Translations under genes and position numbers: made by a program | In this document: positions 1-5,751 of the stretch, piece by piece | Position numbering within the stretch: position 1 is the stretch's first letter | Layout: every line of letters starts with the position of its first letter | Notes under the pieces: generated by a model | Told to the model about the DNA's origin: nothing | Database searches by the model: none | What the model saw: only the letters and a program-made list of their open reading frames with translations | From: Bacteroidota bacterium | GTDB lineage: Bacteria; Bacteroidota; Bacteroidia; Flavobacteriales; Crocinitomicaceae | Direction of reading: 5' to 3' | Length of the DNA stretch: 5,751 nucleotides | Assembly: GCA_029558435.1 (NCBI GenBank) | Contig: JAKQEZ010000488.1 | Coordinates: forward strand, 1-5,751

Positions 1-21
1 AAGCCGAGAACCGTTAGCGGT
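1..21 (+). repeat. Right end of an attC-like boundary repeat (partial, cut by window edge)
   Basis: The window opens in what appears to be the right arm of a palindromic boundary repeat. AAGCCGAGAACC is followed by the core GTTAGCGG at 13-20. The same arrangement occurs at 5537-5554, where AAGCCAGAATCGTTAGCGG differs only by one missing base and one substitution, and at 715-737, where AAAGCCCGAAAAC precedes GTTGTATGCC. The nine bases at 13-21 are exactly complementary to 601-609, the left end of the repeat that closes this block. The left arm of this repeat lies outside the window, so its hairpin cannot be confirmed. Confidence 0.6.
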
Positions 22-728
22 CATTGTAAAAAGACATCCTACATAAATTAATATGACGATCTGAAACGATATTTGAACCTTATCTACAGTTAGCATTTAA
101 CTGACAGATAGGAACTACAAAACATCAATGCCTGAAACAAAAAGTAAAAGATTACAAAGAAACAATTTAACTTTTTATGACATTAAACGACTTTAAAGAA
201 GAACTTAAAAATTGGAAATTTACTAAGTACAAATTAATAAATTTTGCTATTGGAATTTCGGCATTGCTCATTTACGAATTTATTGGACGACCAATCTACC
301 GACCTTATATCTATAATAATAAAATTAACGACTTTCACATTGCAGACACATTAGGTAATACATTTGGGACTTTGCCGACAATATTTTTCTTAATTGCAAT
401 TTTATCCAACGAAACAACAAAAGGAAACTATTTAATAAAACTTGGAACATTTAGCGTTGTTTTATTTGAACTTGCACACCCTTTGCTAGGCAAAACAATA
501 GACATTTGGGATATAATTGCTACTATTTTAGCTGGACTTGTAAGCTATTTAATTTATAATGGAATATTTAAAGACAAATCCAATGAGCAGAAAACAACGA
601 ACCGCTAACACGGGTTTTGCGTCAGGCGGGGTGACGTGCAAACTTGGAGCTTTGTGCTTCTATTCAAGTTCAGTGCAGGTTGACAGTTTTGTGCTCCGAA
701 ACCCGCCCGAACGCAAAGCCCGAAAACG
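14..728 (+). mobile_element. Candidate gene cassette 1 (VanZ-like membrane protein)
   Basis: The limits are set by analogy with integron cassettes, where the crossover falls between G and TT of the core. The unit would then run from the TT of GTTAGCGG (core G at 13) to the G of the next core (728). Its first bases (13-21 with the core G) are a perfect 9-bp complement of 601-609, the left end of its closing palindrome, as expected for a cassette whose attC site reforms on circularisation. It carries a single gene on the + strand. Positions 22-176, before the gene, form an A+T-rich leader in which I see no gene and no confident promoter. Mobility is inferred, not shown. Confidence 0.5.
177..608 (+). 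CDS. Small four-helix membrane protein, VanZ-like
   Basis: This encodes a 143-aa integral membrane protein with four apparent hydrophobic segments at about residues 19-37, 58-76, 85-103 and 110-131. The C-terminal part, with ELAHPLLGKTIDIWDIIAT at about 98-116 followed by a glycine-containing helix, resembles the D-x-x-D-x-x-A pattern of VanZ-like proteins. In that family the name comes from teicoplanin resistance, but most members have no known role, so no resistance function is claimed. The ATG at 177 is the first in-frame start and follows an A/T-rich leader without a clear ribosome site, which is usual in Bacteroidota. The tail (KDKSNEQKTTNR) is hydrophilic. The stop codon TAA (606-608) lies inside the left end of the boundary repeat, so the gene has no 3' untranslated spacer. 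It could also be an unrelated four-helix protein of unknown function. Confidence 0.8.
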   Translation: MTLNDFKEELKNWKFTKYKLINFAIGISALLIYEFIGRPIYRPYIYNNKINDFHIADTLGNTFGTLPTIFFLIAILSNETTKGNYLIKLGTFSVVLFELAHPLLGKTIDIWDIIATILAGLVSYLIYNGIFKDKSNEQKTTNR

Positions 729-737
729 TTGTATGCC
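601..737 (+). repeat. attC-like palindromic boundary repeat closing cassette 1
   Basis: This is an imperfect palindrome of about 137 nt. The left end ACCGCTAAC (601-609) complements the start of its own block (13-21). A long stem follows: 611-622 pairs with 711-722 (12 pairs, one of them T615-G718), then A710 is unpaired, C623 pairs with G709, A624/C708 mismatch, and 625-630 pairs with 702-707. Inside the loop, GGAGC (646-650) can pair with GCTCC (693-697). The right end is the core GTTGTATGCC (728-737), which opens the next block. Integron attC sites likewise have an imperfect stem with unpaired bases on one strand between R'' and R'. The cores do not match the classical GTTRRRY, so this is called attC-like only. 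The transcript hairpin may also attenuate transcription. Confidence 0.8.
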
Positions 738-2784
738 ATTAAAAGTTACTATAATGAAAGGGTATGTTTTAATAGGTCTAATTCTTTTTCTCTTTTGCTC
801 TTGTGAACCAAAATCAAATGAAGATCAGGTTACTGAATGGATAGTTGATCACTCTATTCCCCTAAAAACAGTGGAAGCCGGAAACGGATTTGACGATCTT
901 ACTCCAATAGGCGATATAGTTGGGGATGCGCGGATTGTTTCCTTGGGAGAACCCACACATGGTAATCGTGAAGTGTTTCAATTGAAACACCGTCTAATCG
1001 AGTACCTCGTCACCGAAAAAGGGTTCAACCTATTGGCTTTGGAATGCCCTTTTGGGGAAGCATTTGATGTAAACAACTATATTCTACATGGCGAAGGAAC
1101 TCCCGAAGAGGTCTTGGCAGGAATTTATTATTGGACTTGGGATACCCAAGAATTCGTGGATTTGTTAAAATGGTTGCGTGAATACAATGCAAACCCCAAC
1201 CATGCTACCAAAGTGAAATTCTACGGTTTTGACATACAAGATCCTGAGCGGGCAGCCAGAAAGATGTTAGAATATTTAAGAGAAGTGGACCCCGAATTAT
1301 GGCAATCTGTTAAAACCGAGTTAGCCATTCTTGAAGTTCAGTTTTCTGACCCCATTGGGTTAGGACGAAGACCCTATATCCCTGAAGAATGTGACCAAAG
1401 GAGTTTGTCGGATATTAAACGTGTAATCAATGCCTTCAAACAAAAAAAGGGAGCGTACATTTCTGCTACCAGCGAAAGGGATTGGTTAATCGCAGCACAA
1501 TACGCCCGACAGGTTGAAATATACATCGAAGCTTGTGCCAATGATGGTGAAAAATGGGCGGAAATCCGGGAAATTGCTCAGGCAGAAAACATAAAATGGG
1601 CGCTTGATCAGGAAGAACCAGCCTCCAGGGCAATTGTCTGGGCGCATAATTGCCATGTGTCGAATGCGGCACCGAAGGAAAATATTAAAATGCATGGCCA
1701 TTACCTCCGGAAAATGTACGGAGATCAATTAAAAATATTCGGATTGTTTTTTAATCAGGGTGGATTTAAAGCCATTGATGCACATATACCTTCCAAAGGG
1801 GTTTACAACTTTTCAGTAGATCAAGCCCCTCGCGGAACGCTGGAGGATGCCCTTGCCGCAGCCGAACATTCTCTTTCAGTTGTGGATATGCAGCAGCTAC
1901 CAAAAAAAGGACCCATCCATGAATGGTTTTATACCAAACGACCTACCCGGCATTCCGGGGGAGGGTATAATGAAAATAAACCCGAGGACTATTTTTGGTC
2001 GTATATCCCCGCTGAAGCCTATGACGTTCTGGTCTACTTAGATACTACGACTCCAGTAAAATCAATCAATGATGCTGATTACAGTTATTTCTGGATGCTT
2101 GATAAAAAGTTAGACAAGCCAACAAATCTGGATTTTGAAAGTGACCCTGCAGTACCAGAAGGGTGGTTGGTTTGGTCTAAGTTTCAGCGCTTGGGTTTAG
2201 ATTTTTCGGTGACCGACCAAAACCCTTACAAGGGGAAGCATGCAGCCATGATTCATCGACCTGAAGGCATTTTGTATGGAGAGATTACACCTAACCTGAC
2301 ACAAAGGATTGATGCTTCCCCATACAAAGGCAAAACCATACGTCTAAGGGCGGTTTGCCGTTCCGAGGTGGAAGCCCCGGGGTTTGCCTTTTTCCGACTT
2401 TCTATCGATCCGAGTATCCTTCAAAGTGCTCATGATGGATTGCCTCCGCTTTTTGACAGTTTGGACAGCGTTAGAATTGAGACTTCTGACTGGAGCGTTT
2501 ATGAGATAGAGGCAAAAGTTTATGAAAATGCAGAAAGTATTACCTATGGAATTTATCTCCGGGATCCCGGAACAGTTTGGATAGATGATGTACAGATAGA
2601 AATTGTTGAATAAATATTAAATTAAATTGCAAGTGAGACCAATCGAAAATAAAAACGGCATACAACATTGAATAAGCGTAATGCGGGCTAAAGTGCTAAT
2701 TTTAAACGAATTGAATATTAATAAGCATAAGGTTAAACCGAAAGTGAAGTGCTTCTAATCCCGCACTACGCTTATACTTGACCG
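729..2784 (+). mobile_element. Candidate gene cassette 2 (erythromycin-esterase-family lipoprotein)
   Basis: By the same rule, this unit runs from the TT of GTTGTATGCC (core G at 728) to the G of GTTGGCGGTC (2784). The opening core (728-737) is a perfect 10-bp complement of GGCATACAAC (2657-2666), the left end of the closing palindrome. That match uses a different core sequence from cassette 1, so each block carries its own matched pair and not one fixed repeat. It holds one gene on the + strand. Its base composition is richer in G+C than that of the adjacent blocks, which supports a separate origin. Mobility is inferred. Confidence 0.5.
754..2613 (+). CDS. Erythromycin-esterase-family lipoprotein with C-terminal beta-sandwich-like domain
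   Basis: From ATG 754 this encodes 619 aa. Residues 1-17 form a lipoprotein-type signal, with a hydrophobic run ending LFCSC and C17 as the probable lipidated cysteine, so the protein likely sits on the periplasmic or outer-membrane side. Residues of about 45-430 match the erythromycin esterase family (PF05139 type). They include LGEPTHGNRE at 64-73 (E66, H69, E73), ALECPFGE at 95-102 (E97), FYGFD at 156-160 and WAHNCHV at 296-302 (H298, H301), which correspond to the metal-independent hydrolytic site of EreB-like enzymes. Residues of about 458-619, from NLDFE to VWIDDVQIE, look like a galactose-binding or carbohydrate-binding beta-sandwich. EreA and EreB are cytoplasmic and lack this extension, so macrolide hydrolysis is uncertain; another ester substrate is plausible. 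The frame is open upstream to 559, but that would translate the palindrome. ATG 733 is a possible alternative start but falls inside the core and would precede the signal peptide. Confidence 0.88.
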   Translation: MKGYVLIGLILFLFCSCEPKSNEDQVTEWIVDHSIPLKTVEAGNGFDDLTPIGDIVGDARIVSLGEPTHGNREVFQLKHRLIEYLVTEKGFNLLALECPFGEAFDVNNYILHGEGTPEEVLAGIYYWTWDTQEFVDLLKWLREYNANPNHATKVKFYGFDIQDPERAARKMLEYLREVDPELWQSVKTELAILEVQFSDPIGLGRRPYIPEECDQRSLSDIKRVINAFKQKKGAYISATSERDWLIAAQYARQVEIYIEACANDGEKWAEIREIAQAENIKWALDQEEPASRAIVWAHNCHVSNAAPKENIKMHGHYLRKMYGDQLKIFGLFFNQGGFKAIDAHIPSKGVYNFSVDQAPRGTLEDALAAAEHSLSVVDMQQLPKKGPIHEWFYTKRPTRHSGGGYNENKPEDYFWSYIPAEAYDVLVYLDTTTPVKSINDADYSYFWMLDKKLDKPTNLDFESDPAVPEGWLVWSKFQRLGLDFSVTDQNPYKGKHAAMIHRPEGILYGEITPNLTQRIDASPYKGKTIRLRAVCRSEVEAPGFAFFRLSIDPSILQSAHDGLPPLFDSLDSVRIETSDWSVYEIEAKVYENAESITYGIYLRDPGTVWIDDVQIEIVE

Positions 2785-2793
2785 TTGGCGGTC
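2657..2793 (+). repeat. attC-like palindromic boundary repeat closing cassette 2
   Basis: This is an imperfect palindrome of about 137 nt, the same length as the one at 601-737, although the sequences are largely different. The left end GGCATACAAC (2657-2666) complements the start of its own block (728-737). The stem pairs 2672-2687 with 2760-2775: 15 of 16 positions pair, with one A2681/C2766 mismatch. The loop is about 72 nt of A+T-rich sequence and contains a small inner hairpin, GAAGTGCTTC (2746-2755). The right end is CCGTTGGCGGTC (2782-2793), which opens block 3. Conserved length and architecture with diverged sequence is what is expected of attC sites recognised by structure. The site lies 43 nt after the upstream stop codon and could also act as a transcription terminator or attenuator. 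Confidence 0.8.
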
Positions 2794-2849
2794 AGGCTAA
2801 CAAGACAGACACTCAACAAAATGACAAGACAATTAATCAATTTCACATC

Positions 2850-3641
2850 GTGAATATAAGGATATACAAAGTAAAAAATATTGATAGTTGCATATCGGAA
2901 ATAGTTGAAGTAAAATCAGATTCTTCATTAGATACTCTCACGCACATTGTTCCACCGTTTGGCAACCCTGAAATAATACTTTATGTTGGCAAGACACATC
3001 AAATTAAAAATGTTCCATTCGCCAAAGGTGTTATTAAAGGGCATTACAATATTTCGCAAAAAATAGATTTTATACCAAACTATCATTTTATAACTATCCG
3101 ACTGCAACCCTATGGACTGAAACAATTGTTTGACATCAATGCTATGGGCTTACTCAATTCTGTAATTGATATTGAAAATCATCCTTTAACAGAAGCAATG
3201 TTCAGTTTTATCAAATCAGCAGTTAACTTTGATGTATCGTTTCTAAAAACATTAATTGCTTTTATTGAGCAAAACGCAGTTTATCCTATTTCTGCGTCAA
3301 CAAGAGAGTTTCTAAAAATTTCATCTGAAACAGAATACAAAACGATTAAAGAACTGAGTTATCAGCACGGCATTGGTCAACGAACTTTACAAAGAAATTT
3401 TAAAAAAGAAGTTGGTTTAACGCCCAAAGAGTATTTGAGAATAAAGCGAGTTAATGCGATAGAACAAAAAATGTCTCTTAAAATAGATGTATTTGAAATC
3501 ATTGCTGATTTTGACTTTTCAGACCAGGCTCATTTTATAAAGGACTTTAAAAAACTACGAGGTTTTACCCCATCAGAAATTTTAAAAAAGAAGTTATTGC
3601 TCTCTGACCAACTTGCAACACCTGAAATTATTACAATTTGA
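2850..3641 (+). CDS. AraC-family transcriptional regulator (DUF6597-like N-terminus)
   Basis: From GTG 2850 this encodes 263 aa. The C-terminal AraC/XylS DNA-binding region has two helix-turn-helix units. The first is at about residues 164-187, with the recognition stretch GIGQRTLQRNFKKEVG and then TPKEYLRIKR. The second is at about 213-236, with FDFSDQAHFIKDFKKLRGFTPSE, the signature second helix-turn-helix and GFTPSE end of the family. The N-terminal part (PPFGNPEIILYVG at about 35-47) resembles the effector domain labelled DUF6597. There is no ATG start near the N-terminus. The frame is open to TTG 2778, but that start would translate the repeat core, so GTG 2850 is preferred because it gives a typical AraC N-terminus (MNIRIYKVKN). 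It lies upstream of the methyltransferase, DinB and SRPBCC genes in the same direction and is the likely regulator of that trio. Its ligand is unknown. Confidence 0.85.
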   Translation: MNIRIYKVKNIDSCISEIVEVKSDSSLDTLTHIVPPFGNPEIILYVGKTHQIKNVPFAKGVIKGHYNISQKIDFIPNYHFITIRLQPYGLKQLFDINAMGLLNSVIDIENHPLTEAMFSFIKSAVNFDVSFLKTLIAFIEQNAVYPISASTREFLKISSETEYKTIKELSYQHGIGQRTLQRNFKKEVGLTPKEYLRIKRVNAIEQKMSLKIDVFEIIADFDFSDQAHFIKDFKKLRGFTPSEILKKKLLLSDQLATPEIITI

Positions 3642-3717
3642 ATTTGTCGCTTTTTTACAATGAAAACCCACTTATTTGGTAAGACCTTTGCATCTCAAAA
3701 CATAAGTCGTTGATAAT

Positions 3718-4491
3718 ATGAAACGAGTTCACGCTCTTGAATGGGAAGATTTGCAATGGTTTCCTACAAGTTGGAGAGATTATGGCACAGACTACTTAAA
3801 GTTTATTGCCACAAAATTTAATATCTACAAGCCTGTTTTGCCTTTAATGCAAAAATGTTTAGACAAAAGCGGGCAACAACATTGGGTAGATTTAGCATCT
3901 GGTGGTGGCAGCGGATTGATTTGCTTGGCAAAAGATTTAAAAAAAGACAATACCAATTTGAAAATCACGCTTACAGATTACTACCCTAACATCAAGGCAT
4001 TTGAACAACTTCAGGCAGAAGTTCCAGACACTTTTTTTTATGAAAAGTCATCGGTAGATGCGGCTCAACCGCCTATACACTTGCAAGGAAAAATGCAAAC
4101 AATTTTTGGTGCATTTCATCATTTCCGCCCCCAGAAAGCCAAACAGATTATACAAAATGCAGTGGAGACAAATTCCACCATTGCAATTTTTGAGCCTGTC
4201 GGTAGGAATTTCGGAAGTTGGTTTTCTATGCTTTTTGTACCACTAAATGTTTTAATATTTACTTTGTTTATTCGTCCTGTTCGTTGGAATGTTTTGCCGT
4301 TTATTTATCTCTTCCCTTTAATTCCACTTTATATTTTGTGGGACGGTATCGCTTCTATTTTGCGTACCTACTCGGAAAAAGAATTGCAAGATTTGGTGAA
4401 TTCCTTAGAAAACACTCATACCTACGAGTGGGAAATCGGTAAAACTTCAGGACGAATGCCTATTTACTATCTCTTGGGTTATAAAAAATGA
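3718..4491 (+). CDS. Class I SAM-dependent methyltransferase with hydrophobic C-terminal region
   Basis: This encodes 257 aa. SAM-binding motif I is VDLASGGGSG at residues 57-66, the acidic residue after strand 2 is in LTDYYP (D87), and a later motif GAFHHF (131-136) with IAIFEP (155-160) fits the Rossmann-like methyltransferase fold. After the fold come two strongly hydrophobic stretches at about 166-186 and 192-207, split by RPVRWN, so the protein may attach to a membrane or act on a lipid-like substrate. The last segment (about 217-257) returns to a soluble pattern ending in IYYLLGYKK. The substrate cannot be told from the sequence. The ATG at 3718 follows a 76-nt gap after the regulator; I see no convincing promoter there. 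The stop overlaps the next gene (ATGA at 4488-4491), indicating translational coupling. Confidence 0.85.
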   Translation: MKRVHALEWEDLQWFPTSWRDYGTDYLKFIATKFNIYKPVLPLMQKCLDKSGQQHWVDLASGGGSGLICLAKDLKKDNTNLKITLTDYYPNIKAFEQLQAEVPDTFFYEKSSVDAAQPPIHLQGKMQTIFGAFHHFRPQKAKQIIQNAVETNSTIAIFEPVGRNFGSWFSMLFVPLNVLIFTLFIRPVRWNVLPFIYLFPLIPLYILWDGIASILRTYSEKELQDLVNSLENTHTYEWEIGKTSGRMPIYYLLGYKK

Positions 4492-5033
4492 TGAAGATGA
4501 ATTGGATAACAGAACTTGACAAGATAACCAAAGATGTTGAGTTACTATTTAGCAATTTGACATCTTTGGAACTTAATTGGAAACCTAATCCGCAAACGTG
4601 GAGCATCGCTCAAAATTTAGAGCATTTGATAGTGGTTAATGAAACTTACTTTCCTGTTTTGTCAGCATTAAAAAACAGCAACTATAAAACACCGCTTATT
4701 GGAAAATTAGGTTTTATCGTTTCATTTTTTGGTAAAACTGTCTTAAATGCCGTTCAGCCCGACAGAAAGAAAAAAATGAAAACATTTCCAATTTGGGAAC
4801 CAACTAAAAGTGAAGTAACAAAGGATATTTTTTTGCGATTTAAAAATCATCAAAACGAATTAAAACAACAGATAAAAGATTCTGAAATCCTTGCAAAAAA
4901 AGGAGTAGTCATTGCTTCACCAGCAAACAAGAACATTGTTTATAAATTAGAAACGGCATTTGACATCATTGTAACTCACGAGCAAAGACATTTAGAACAA
5001 GCCAAAGAAATTTTAAACCTTTTAAAAAAATGA
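4488..5033 (+). CDS. DinB-superfamily protein
   Basis: This encodes 181 aa of the DinB/YfiT-like four-helix-bundle type. H46 (in NLEHL), H164 and H168 (in THEQRH) form the three-histidine metal site typical of the superfamily, and WSIAQNLEHL at about 38-47 is the usual N-terminal signature (W-S-x-x-x-x-x-x-H-L). Many members are metal-dependent thiol transferases or hydrolases for low-molecular-weight thiols, and others have no known activity. The function here is inferred only at fold level. Its start overlaps the stop of the methyltransferase gene (ATGA, 4488-4491), with in-frame ATGs at 4488, 4491 and 4497, so the exact first methionine is uncertain by up to three residues. The stop overlaps the start of the next gene in the same way (5030-5033). 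Base use is A+T-rich, like its neighbours in block 3. Confidence 0.85.
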   Translation: MMKMNWITELDKITKDVELLFSNLTSLELNWKPNPQTWSIAQNLEHLIVVNETYFPVLSALKNSNYKTPLIGKLGFIVSFFGKTVLNAVQPDRKKKMKTFPIWEPTKSEVTKDIFLRFKNHQNELKQQIKDSEILAKKGVVIASPANKNIVYKLETAFDIIVTHEQRHLEQAKEILNLLKK

Positions 5034-5533
5034 AGTTTACAACAAAAATCACTACAACCTTTAACTGCTCATTAGAAAGAGCCTTTAAAACCCCGATGCT
5101 TTGTGATGTAACAAAAGTGCATACCGGTTATGGATTAATGCCAAGGGTAACGCATACCACAGATGACAAAAATTGGGGACAAATAGGTTCAAGTAAAAAA
5201 GTATTTGTTGCCAAATCATTAACTCATAAAGGTGGTTTTGGGTCCGTGGATAATGTTGTGGATCGTATAGAAAACAAATACTGGAAAATCGAAATCAATA
5301 ATTTTCAAGCGTGGATGTTAGGCTTCTACAAATTTGTTGGTGAATGGCAGACAACCGAACTTGAAAAAAACAAGATTTTGATAGAATATACCTATACATT
5401 ATACGCTAACAATCCGTTGCTTTACCCGATAAATTGGCTTTTTACAAAGACTTTTTGGAGAAGATATATGAAGCAAGCATTGGAAAATGTCAGACAACTT
5501 ACCATTAAAAAAGAGCCATACCAATATGCGTAA
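5030..5533 (+). CDS. SRPBCC (START/Bet v1-like) family protein
   Basis: This encodes 167 aa. The alternating hydrophobic beta-strand pattern, an N-terminus of the form KITTTFNCSLERAFKT (strand, then helix), the mid-region KIEINNFQAWMLGFYKFVGEWQTTEL and the long amphipathic C-terminal helix (about 134-156, NWLFTKTFWRRYMKQALENVRQL) fit the SRPBCC ligand-binding fold. Such proteins bind hydrophobic small molecules or act in their modification; no catalytic residues can be assigned. ATG 5030 overlaps the TGA of the DinB gene, the second 4-nt overlap in a row, so the three genes are almost certainly one operon made in linked amounts. The stop lies 14 nt before the GTTAGCGG core at 5547, with no palindrome in between. 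A membership call by profile search would firm this up. Confidence 0.75.
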   Translation: MKFTTKITTTFNCSLERAFKTPMLCDVTKVHTGYGLMPRVTHTTDDKNWGQIGSSKKVFVAKSLTHKGGFGSVDNVVDRIENKYWKIEINNFQAWMLGFYKFVGEWQTTELEKNKILIEYTYTLYANNPLLYPINWLFTKTFWRRYMKQALENVRQLTIKKEPYQYA

Positions 5534-5536
5534 AGA

Positions 5537-5554
5537 AGCCAGAATCGTTAGCGG
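5537..5554 (+). repeat. Boundary core without complete palindrome (AAGCCAGAATCGTTAGCGG type)
   Basis: The sequence AAGCCAGAATCGTTAGCGG here (5536/5537-5554) is nearly identical to positions 1-20 (AAGCCGAGAACCGTTAGCGG), so it is probably the right end of the same boundary repeat class. No matching left arm lies in the 14-nt gap after the SRPBCC stop codon. CGCTAAC at 5404-5410, inside the SRPBCC gene, is complementary to GTTAGCG at 5547-5553 at a distance close to that in the complete repeats, but it lies in apparently conserved coding sequence. The site may be a truncated or degraded repeat. Confidence 0.5.
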
Positions 5555-5626
5555 TAAGCAATGAGACTCGTAATATTTTGAGATACTTAAGAGTCAAATT
5601 AGAAAAAAAATAAATCAAACAAAGAA

Positions 5627-5751
5627 ATGAATAAACTAACGCTACCTTTATTATTGATTGTATTGCTATTACCAATACTTTTAGGCTTAACGAATGTAAA
5701 AGATGAATGGATAGTTGAAAAACAAAAAGGCTATTCTTTACATTACAAAAC
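5627..5751 (+). CDS. Hypothetical exported or membrane-anchored protein (N-terminal fragment)
   Basis: The frame is open from ATG 5627 to the end of the window and gives 41 codons, beginning MNKLTLPLLLIVLLLPILLG. That start is a strongly hydrophobic stretch (about residues 4-21) after a single lysine, typical of a signal peptide or N-terminal membrane anchor. There is no lipobox cysteine. The following residues (LTNVKDEWIVEKQKGYSLHYK) look like the start of a soluble extracytoplasmic domain. I do not recognise the family from this fragment. The start follows an A-rich leader (AAAGAA just upstream), usual for Bacteroidota. It lies about 73 nt after the GTTAGCGG core, as in cassettes 1 to 3 where the first gene follows the core closely, so it is the probable first gene of a fourth block. 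The 3' end is outside the window. Confidence 0.65.
   Translation, partial: MNKLTLPLLLIVLLLPILLGLTNVKDEWIVEKQKGYSLHYK

Follow-up and report, generated by a model that had tools for sequence, protein, structure and literature searches.

The DNA analysed here, hereafter the window, is a whole 5,751-nt stretch of contig JAKQEZ010000488.1 from a Bacteroidota bacterium (assembly GCA_029558435.1), which we read as a fragment of an integron-like cassette array. Three cores (13, 728, and 2784) and two complete palindromic sites split it into cassette 1, cassette 2, and the start of a longer block, and the main open reading frames (ORFs) all lie on the + strand, in agreement with an initial annotation that had placed the gene blocks there.

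13..22, + strand: 5' core of cassette 1, GTTAGCGGTC, the reverse complement of which recurs at the cassette 1 end (601-609)
14..728, + strand: cassette 1, with the exchange point taken as between G and TT; the ends match its own core
177..608, + strand: ORF of cassette 1, VanZ-like membrane protein (PF04892, under the curated cut-off)
601..609, + strand: ACCGCTAAC, the 3' end of cassette 1, complementary in reverse to the 5' core of the same cassette
606..731, + strand: putative recombination site of cassette 1, an attC-like palindrome (site model R1, 82.4 bits)
728..736, + strand: 5' core of cassette 2, GTTGTATGC; the core start at 728 is GTTGTATGCC
729..2784, + strand: cassette 2, own-core match 6/6
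754..2613, + strand: ORF of cassette 2, erythromycin-esterase superfamily (PF05139)
2657..2666, + strand: GGCATACAAC, the 3' end of cassette 2, complementary in reverse to the 5' core of the same cassette
2663..2787, + strand: putative recombination site of cassette 2, an attC-like palindrome (R1, 102.9 bits)
2784..2792, + strand: 5' core of cassette 3, GTTGGCGGT; the core start at 2784 is GTTGGCGGTC
2785..5751, + strand: cassette 3 or more, with no R1 site and no own-core end in the remaining window
2844..3641, + strand: AraC-type regulator ORF (PF12833; start codon uncertain)
3718..4491, + strand: ORF without a Pfam match; weak NCBIfam match NF004851 (hypothetical protein)
4488..5033, + strand: DinB_2 family ORF (PF12867)
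5030..5533, + strand: polyketide cyclase-like ORF (PF10604)
5547..5554, + strand: proposed fourth core, GTTAGCGG, unsupported, with no site before it

The initial annotation had proposed cores at 13, 728, 2784, and 5547. The first three stand; the fourth is unsupported, since no site precedes it. The end expected for cassette 3, GACCGCCAAC, finds only a match with two mismatches on the + strand of the window, at 600-609, and this belongs to cassette 1. The two complete palindromes that had been described between blocks 1 and 2 and between blocks 2 and 3 correspond to the R1 matches at 606-731 and 2663-2787, and nothing else in the window scores above 11 bits with this model. By eye, bases 1-12 resemble the tail of a preceding site.

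Several lines of evidence identify the two window palindromes, by sequence comparison, as recombination sites of one family. When the whole window was compared by distant blastn with 72,556 plasmids, 12 records matched, and in 11 of these the best matched place spans 118-155 nt of one window site, the twelfth (Emticicia) covering 59 nt of site 1. Six plasmid records, from Empedobacter (where the match is at lnu(H)), Riemerella, and Myroides, match the site at 606..731 with 79-82% DNA identity, and three more Myroides records do so with 73%; the site at 2663..2787 is 74% identical to the site behind lnu(I) on the Riemerella plasmid NZ_CP073240.1. We pooled the sites of these plasmids with those of Persicobacter pPP2 and of recombinase loci, thinned them to 45, and built R1 from their alignment; both window sites are included, so that the 45 score by construction and the window scores are partly circular. 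The consensus stem consists of 15 pairs, 14 of which show a compensatory change on both sides in at least one of the 45 sequences. One A is invariant (45/45) opposite a C (40/45), and a second A/C pair is frequent (30 and 34 of 45); on the top strand these A/C positions are mismatched, and on the bottom strand they become G.T pairs. Folding with DNA parameters gives the more stable structure for the bottom strand in 37/45 sites, or in 40/45 when stems alone are counted. The sites of this one family measure about 120-125 nt, and a longer form reaches about 180 nt. A hand-made detector (YAAC, complementary arms, and A[AC]CGTTR), devised after the sites were seen, recovers the same two window sites and has any match in 2/400 shuffled windows; it overlooked both sites of the Persicobacter JZB09 locus, which R1 found. 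The initial annotation was right that the cores do not fit GTTRRRY: none of the four in the window does, and the motif fits 7/121 non-redundant cores, the GTTR being imposed by the detector.

A further property, on which the initial annotation was silent, is that the 3' end of cassette 1 and that of cassette 2 are each the reverse complement of the cassette's own 5' core, which is what excision as a circle predicts. In 72 neighbouring sites, most of them from pPP2, positions 4-9 match the own core in 72-86% and the next core in 26-58%. Outside pPP2, scoring from R1 site lists was possible for 102 of 113 neighbouring pairs, with the weak C. oryzae plasmid match and one Rufibacter plasmid place matched on both strands left out. 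The own core matches at five or more of six bases in 88/102 pairs (81 of them perfectly) and the next core in 12/102; over 2000 shuffled pairings the number of matches averages 7.2 and never exceeds 18. An earlier count on a chosen subset had given 78/90, and limiting gaps to 2 kb gives 74/81; because of this last figure, failures of the rule appear to stem partly from missed sites.

The head of such an array is best seen on Persicobacter psychrovividus plasmid pPP2 (NZ_AP025294.1), where 62 R1 matches lie within 50 kb on a single strand and the only PF00589 match in 404,592 bases is at the array head, in the same direction as the array. This array is superintegron-like in appearance: a single short cassette (core GTTATCTCTG) recurs in it many times, and the array also contains the longer site form of about 180 nt. 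A comparison of these 50 kb with the 41-kb Persicobacter JZB09 plasmid, aimed at cassettes in new order, found no common stretch of 230 nt or more. Through relatives of the pPP2 enzyme we fetched at least 80 loci, many of them not from Bacteroidota or cut short; in 13 of these, all 45 R1 matches lie downstream on the recombinase strand. The same holds for all 38 matches in 11 of 20 further regions, which were picked for downstream room from 55 listed matches to the N-terminal domain in 158 genomes, bringing the count to 83/83. Among regions with at least 10 kb downstream of the recombinase, 10/14 carry sites. The downstream orientation is also that of the Chryseobacterium plasmid (5/5) and of the JZB09 plasmid (2/2); site matches on the Rufibacter and C. 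oryzae plasmids are weak and mostly short, one being on both strands. At loci L186 and L190 there is a second recombinase type, nearest to the enzyme of locus L032 and divergent from the array like intI in classical integrons. A decayed array head is seen in a Winogradskyella genome (G003:C16:511295-511774), where four stop codons interrupt a recombinase frame located upstream of consecutive sites.

In all 22 loci scored, the first site is preceded by a core that agrees with the end of the first cassette itself (21 at 6/6 bases). In 13 loci the recombinase stop is followed by this core after 34-152 nt, and in 6 the two are 300-4032 nt apart; the script did not locate the stop in 3. The related loci, rather than the window, display what, from sequence, appears to be an attI-like point beside the recombinase, where the first cassette begins.

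The array recombinase is, by its sequence, a XerA-like enzyme and not IntI. Six array-type enzymes were tested, three from array heads that were seen or 99% identical to one and three relatives by sequence only. All six pass NF040815 (XerA, cut-off 220 bits) at 220.9-233.3 bits, three IntI scoring 177-182, and they reach 197-207 bits with the IntI model TIGR02249 (cut-off 265), compared with 431-470 for the three IntI controls. The initial annotation had looked to a recombinase with the integron-specific extra domain. That expectation did not hold: the TIGR02249 cut-off is missed, and 59-60 residues precede the catalytic RHSF motif in 20/20 aligned relatives, versus 102 in six IntI. A tree of 48 rows places the six IntI together in a separate clade (100/100 support) that contains no Bacteroidota recombinase, and R1 has no match in the six IntI loci. 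Structure comparison by both Foldseek and VIA-align ranks XerA (5hxy) first, the aligned rows starting at about residue 92. The enzymes usually have an extra N-terminal region of about 75-100 residues. This domain (residues 1-75 of P0001 and relatives) has no Pfam match worth naming, and residues 1-75 of P0001 are predicted with high confidence. A likeness to the HARP domain was considered, but a search of papers gave nothing on recombinases, and we do not claim it. Plasmid matches H22-H46 (Acinetobacter and one 'uncultured bacterium') encode a tyrosine recombinase that shares 52% identity with the array-head enzyme of Seonamhaeicola over the catalytic part of the latter (query 143-376).

Related arrays on plasmids of Riemerella, Empedobacter, and Myroides contain resistance genes, and in related arrays cassettes are found to have moved as units, one of them by published experiment. 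Shared segments of at least 350 nt and at least 90% identity in different contexts were sought in these related arrays; there are 15, with both ends at GTT in 5 and at least one end at GTT in 10. On Riemerella pRCAD0416RA-1 a tet(X) segment occurs twice (4227-5559 and 12952-14284), 99.4% identical and with both ends at GTT. A 2026 paper (PMC13148043) reports that in R. anatipestifer ATCC 11845 a polymerase chain reaction (PCR) fragment carrying aph(3')-IVb integrated although it had no flanking homology, and that the integrated unit was constant, the 789-bp gene being accompanied by 27 bp upstream and 140 bp downstream. Its authors point out an attC-like fold of the 140-bp 3' segment and suggest site-specific recombination guided by structure; in the same text, homology-independent integration in Riemerella anatipestifer covers aph(3')-IVb, lnu(H), and blaRATA, strain RCAD0416 is named as a carrier, and the landing place is among relE, hthR, and cdf. 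On NZ_CP073240.1, a plasmid of strain RCAD0416, the core-to-core distance round the 789-nt APH(3') gene is 956 nt, which equals 27+789+140, and a relE-HTH pair sits between two sites. Palindromes away from block boundaries and immobile blocks had been named initially as observations that would speak against cassettes; in related arrays we find the reverse, with 88/102 pairs obeying the own-core rule and near-identical cassettes in different contexts with ends at cores.

The cassette 2 ORF (754..2613) scores far under the cut-offs for EreA, EreB, and EreD, and resistance is therefore not implied. Named relatives of the ORF at 3718..4491 are all from Bacteroidota, one being named class I SAM-dependent.

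The initial annotation had suggested searching the host genome with a custom model built from the two window sites. R1 (E 1e-4) finds matches in at least 127/158 genomes of the class of the Seonamhaeicola genome, which we take to be Bacteroidia in GTDB, and in 1/114 control genomes of the class of the Aquabacterium genome, presumably Gammaproteobacteria in GTDB. The sole match among the controls is G173:C194:602-723, with an E of 1.2e-10. Of 15 genomes that supplied recombinase loci, 12 have R1 matches (53, 8, 31, 3, 29, 5, 10, 15, 30, 62, 3, and 37) and those of Mediterranea, Pseudoduganella, and Aquabacterium have none. A search of 395 genomes with the DNA of cassette 2, with two candidates scored per genome, gave 38 matches in 30 genomes among the matches listed; of these, 31 (25 genomes) fall within the site and the other 7 within the gene part, and the site therefore occurs without this cargo.

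Based on these comparisons it is very probable that the window is the interior, or a recombinase-less part, of an integron-like Bacteroidota cassette array served by a recombinase other than IntI. The layout, the site family, the own-core rule, the polarity, the recombinase at the array head, the insertion point, and the occurrence of cassettes in different contexts are all seen by comparison, mostly in related arrays. We hypothesize that a cassette comprises a gene block and a palindromic site of about 125 nt, that it would be excised as a circle with exchange within the GTT common to neighbouring sites, and that it would be inserted at an attI-like point behind the tyrosine recombinase gene or at the site of another cassette. 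Catalysis would fall to the array-head recombinase, which is XerA-like and in most cases has an additional N-terminal domain, and the folded bottom strand would be its substrate. Competence brings in single strands, and it would feed the system directly. The initial annotation had left three proposals side by side, a divergent integron array, a cluster without an integrase, and a different system acting on folded strands; the evidence fits a combination of them.

Ordinary integron cassettes, with the attC sites and usual recombinase of an IntI-type integron in a Bacteroidota host, would account for the same layout, the same own-core rule, and the insertion point that follows the recombinase. 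There are reports of integrons from Bacteroidota (PMC8618304 and PMC9668308), the accessible text of PMC9024848 lists a complete one in Salinibacter ruber, and NCBI labels some of the enzymes 'site-specific tyrosine recombinase/integron integrase'. Integrons, including clusters of attC sites lacking integron integrases (CALIN), share several features with the present arrays: the gene blocks all point the same way, gene ends carry palindromic sites, cassette ends are complementary to their own cores, the core contains GTT, a recombinase stands at the head with the insertion point behind it, and some cassettes carry resistance genes. The recombinase here, however, lacks the IntI insertion, fails the IntI model, stands outside the IntI clade, and mostly runs in the same direction as its array, and the core is GTTR plus about five variable bases within one site family whose model leaves the IntI loci unmatched. 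Few cores fit GTTRRRY. We consider this explanation quite unlikely. That the palindromes are terminators, repetitive extragenic palindromic (REP)-like repeats, or structured RNAs agrees with their position at gene ends and with their folding better than most shuffles, but no Rfam family is reached at its cut-off, and the own-core rule, one-way arrays behind a recombinase, cassette ends at cores, and the published 956-nt unit would all be unexpected. We dropped this reading on those grounds and hold it to be extremely improbable.

The sites could also be integron-like and mobile with the array-head recombinase a mere passenger, the cassettes being moved by host XerC/XerD or by another enzyme. 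Many genomes with sites have no match to the N-terminal domain, no such recombinase is shown for Riemerella, and other tyrosine recombinases lie beside IS91-family transposases in a Myroides array, all of which such a division of labour would accommodate. Yet every one of the 83 site matches lies downstream on the recombinase strand, the first-cassette core is close behind the recombinase in 13/22 loci, and the pPP2 enzyme is the sole PF00589 match there, at the array head; the passenger explanation is accordingly judged unlikely. Myroides p63039 has four PF00589 matches, three of them in an annotated stretch. The IS91-linked enzymes of this plasmid were considered as the cassette enzyme and set aside; these three stand beside IS91 transposases on the strand opposite to the array. 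A unit of IS91-family transposase and tyrosine recombinase is present there in more than one copy (13017-15371 and 6958-9312) and borders the left ends of cassette sites.

Some observations weigh against the cassette-array reading. Pfam names no recombinase among the seven ORFs of the window, as the initial annotation had also noted for an integrase. The own-core test is failed by 14/102 pairs, and 11/113 went unscored. Some of the 20 regions picked for downstream room had same-contig sites already visible, and sites are absent from 4/14 of the regions with at least 10 kb downstream. In the reverse test, starting from 14 site clusters, the fetched stretch of 5 contains a recombinase relative, 3 in the usual orientation and 2 divergent; in the fetched stretches of the other 9, 3-10 kb long in three, there is none. 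At locus L190 one site also lies on the other side of the divergent recombinase. Sites occur in 39/41 genomes positive for the N-terminal domain and still in 88/117 without a match to it, because of which co-occurrence by this domain alone is a poor argument for linking recombinase and site. An inverted repeat before the insertion point stands out (at most 2/100 shuffles) in just 5/17 loci. Among the 120 of 8000 matches listed for relatives of the Chryseobacterium enzyme there is no Riemerella name. Several resistance genes (catB, ere(D), and erm(F)) are on the strand opposite to their array, and the shared segments overlap one another, chance placing ends at GTT at a rate of 3% when two positions are taken as independent and of 17% when a single position is considered.

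The cassette-array reading also sets the system beside several known ones. It resembles the Riemerella integration in the attC-like fold of the 140-bp segment and in a unit length equal to one cassette, but in the accessible parts of PMC13148043 there is no mention of a recombinase, an insertion point, a site family, or a broader distribution. XerA-type recombinases (NF040815 and 5hxy) are alike in that their cut-off is passed 6/6 and in being the top structural match, but differ from the present enzymes, which have the N-terminal extra region of about 75-100 residues and head cassette arrays. The Vibrio superintegron is comparable to pPP2 with its 62 site matches in 50 kb on a single strand, but the pPP2 array is plasmid-borne and has another site family and another recombinase. 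Among open-licence papers, preprints not included, no title or abstract start describes such a system, PMC13148043 apart, and earlier print elsewhere is possible.

Taking these comparisons further, we lean toward the hypothesis that Bacteroidota have an integron system of their own, phylum-wide and independent of IntI, in which a XerA-like recombinase with an N-terminal domain would handle folded single-stranded sites without the IntI extra domain, capture cassettes at its own attI, and be fed by competence, and which would be the unrecognised builder of resistance clusters in Riemerella, Myroides, and Empedobacter. Integrons are held to be rare in Bacteroidota, and the accessible text of PMC9024848, the IntegronFinder 2 paper, gives one complete Bacteroidota integron, that of Salinibacter ruber. 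If the hypothesis is correct, the presence of sites in at least 127 of the 158 sampled genomes would represent a large gene-capture platform that went unnoticed owing to its different cores and recombinase. Integron recombination is described as requiring the IntI extra domain (PMC9668308), and an enzyme that works without it would make the requirements of folded-strand recombination testable. Such a system would be a candidate to explain how DNA integrates without homology in Riemerella, for which a mechanism is lacking, and, if true, would explain the gathering of tet(X), lnu, ere(D), catB, OXA, and aadS in plasmids of Flavobacteriia.
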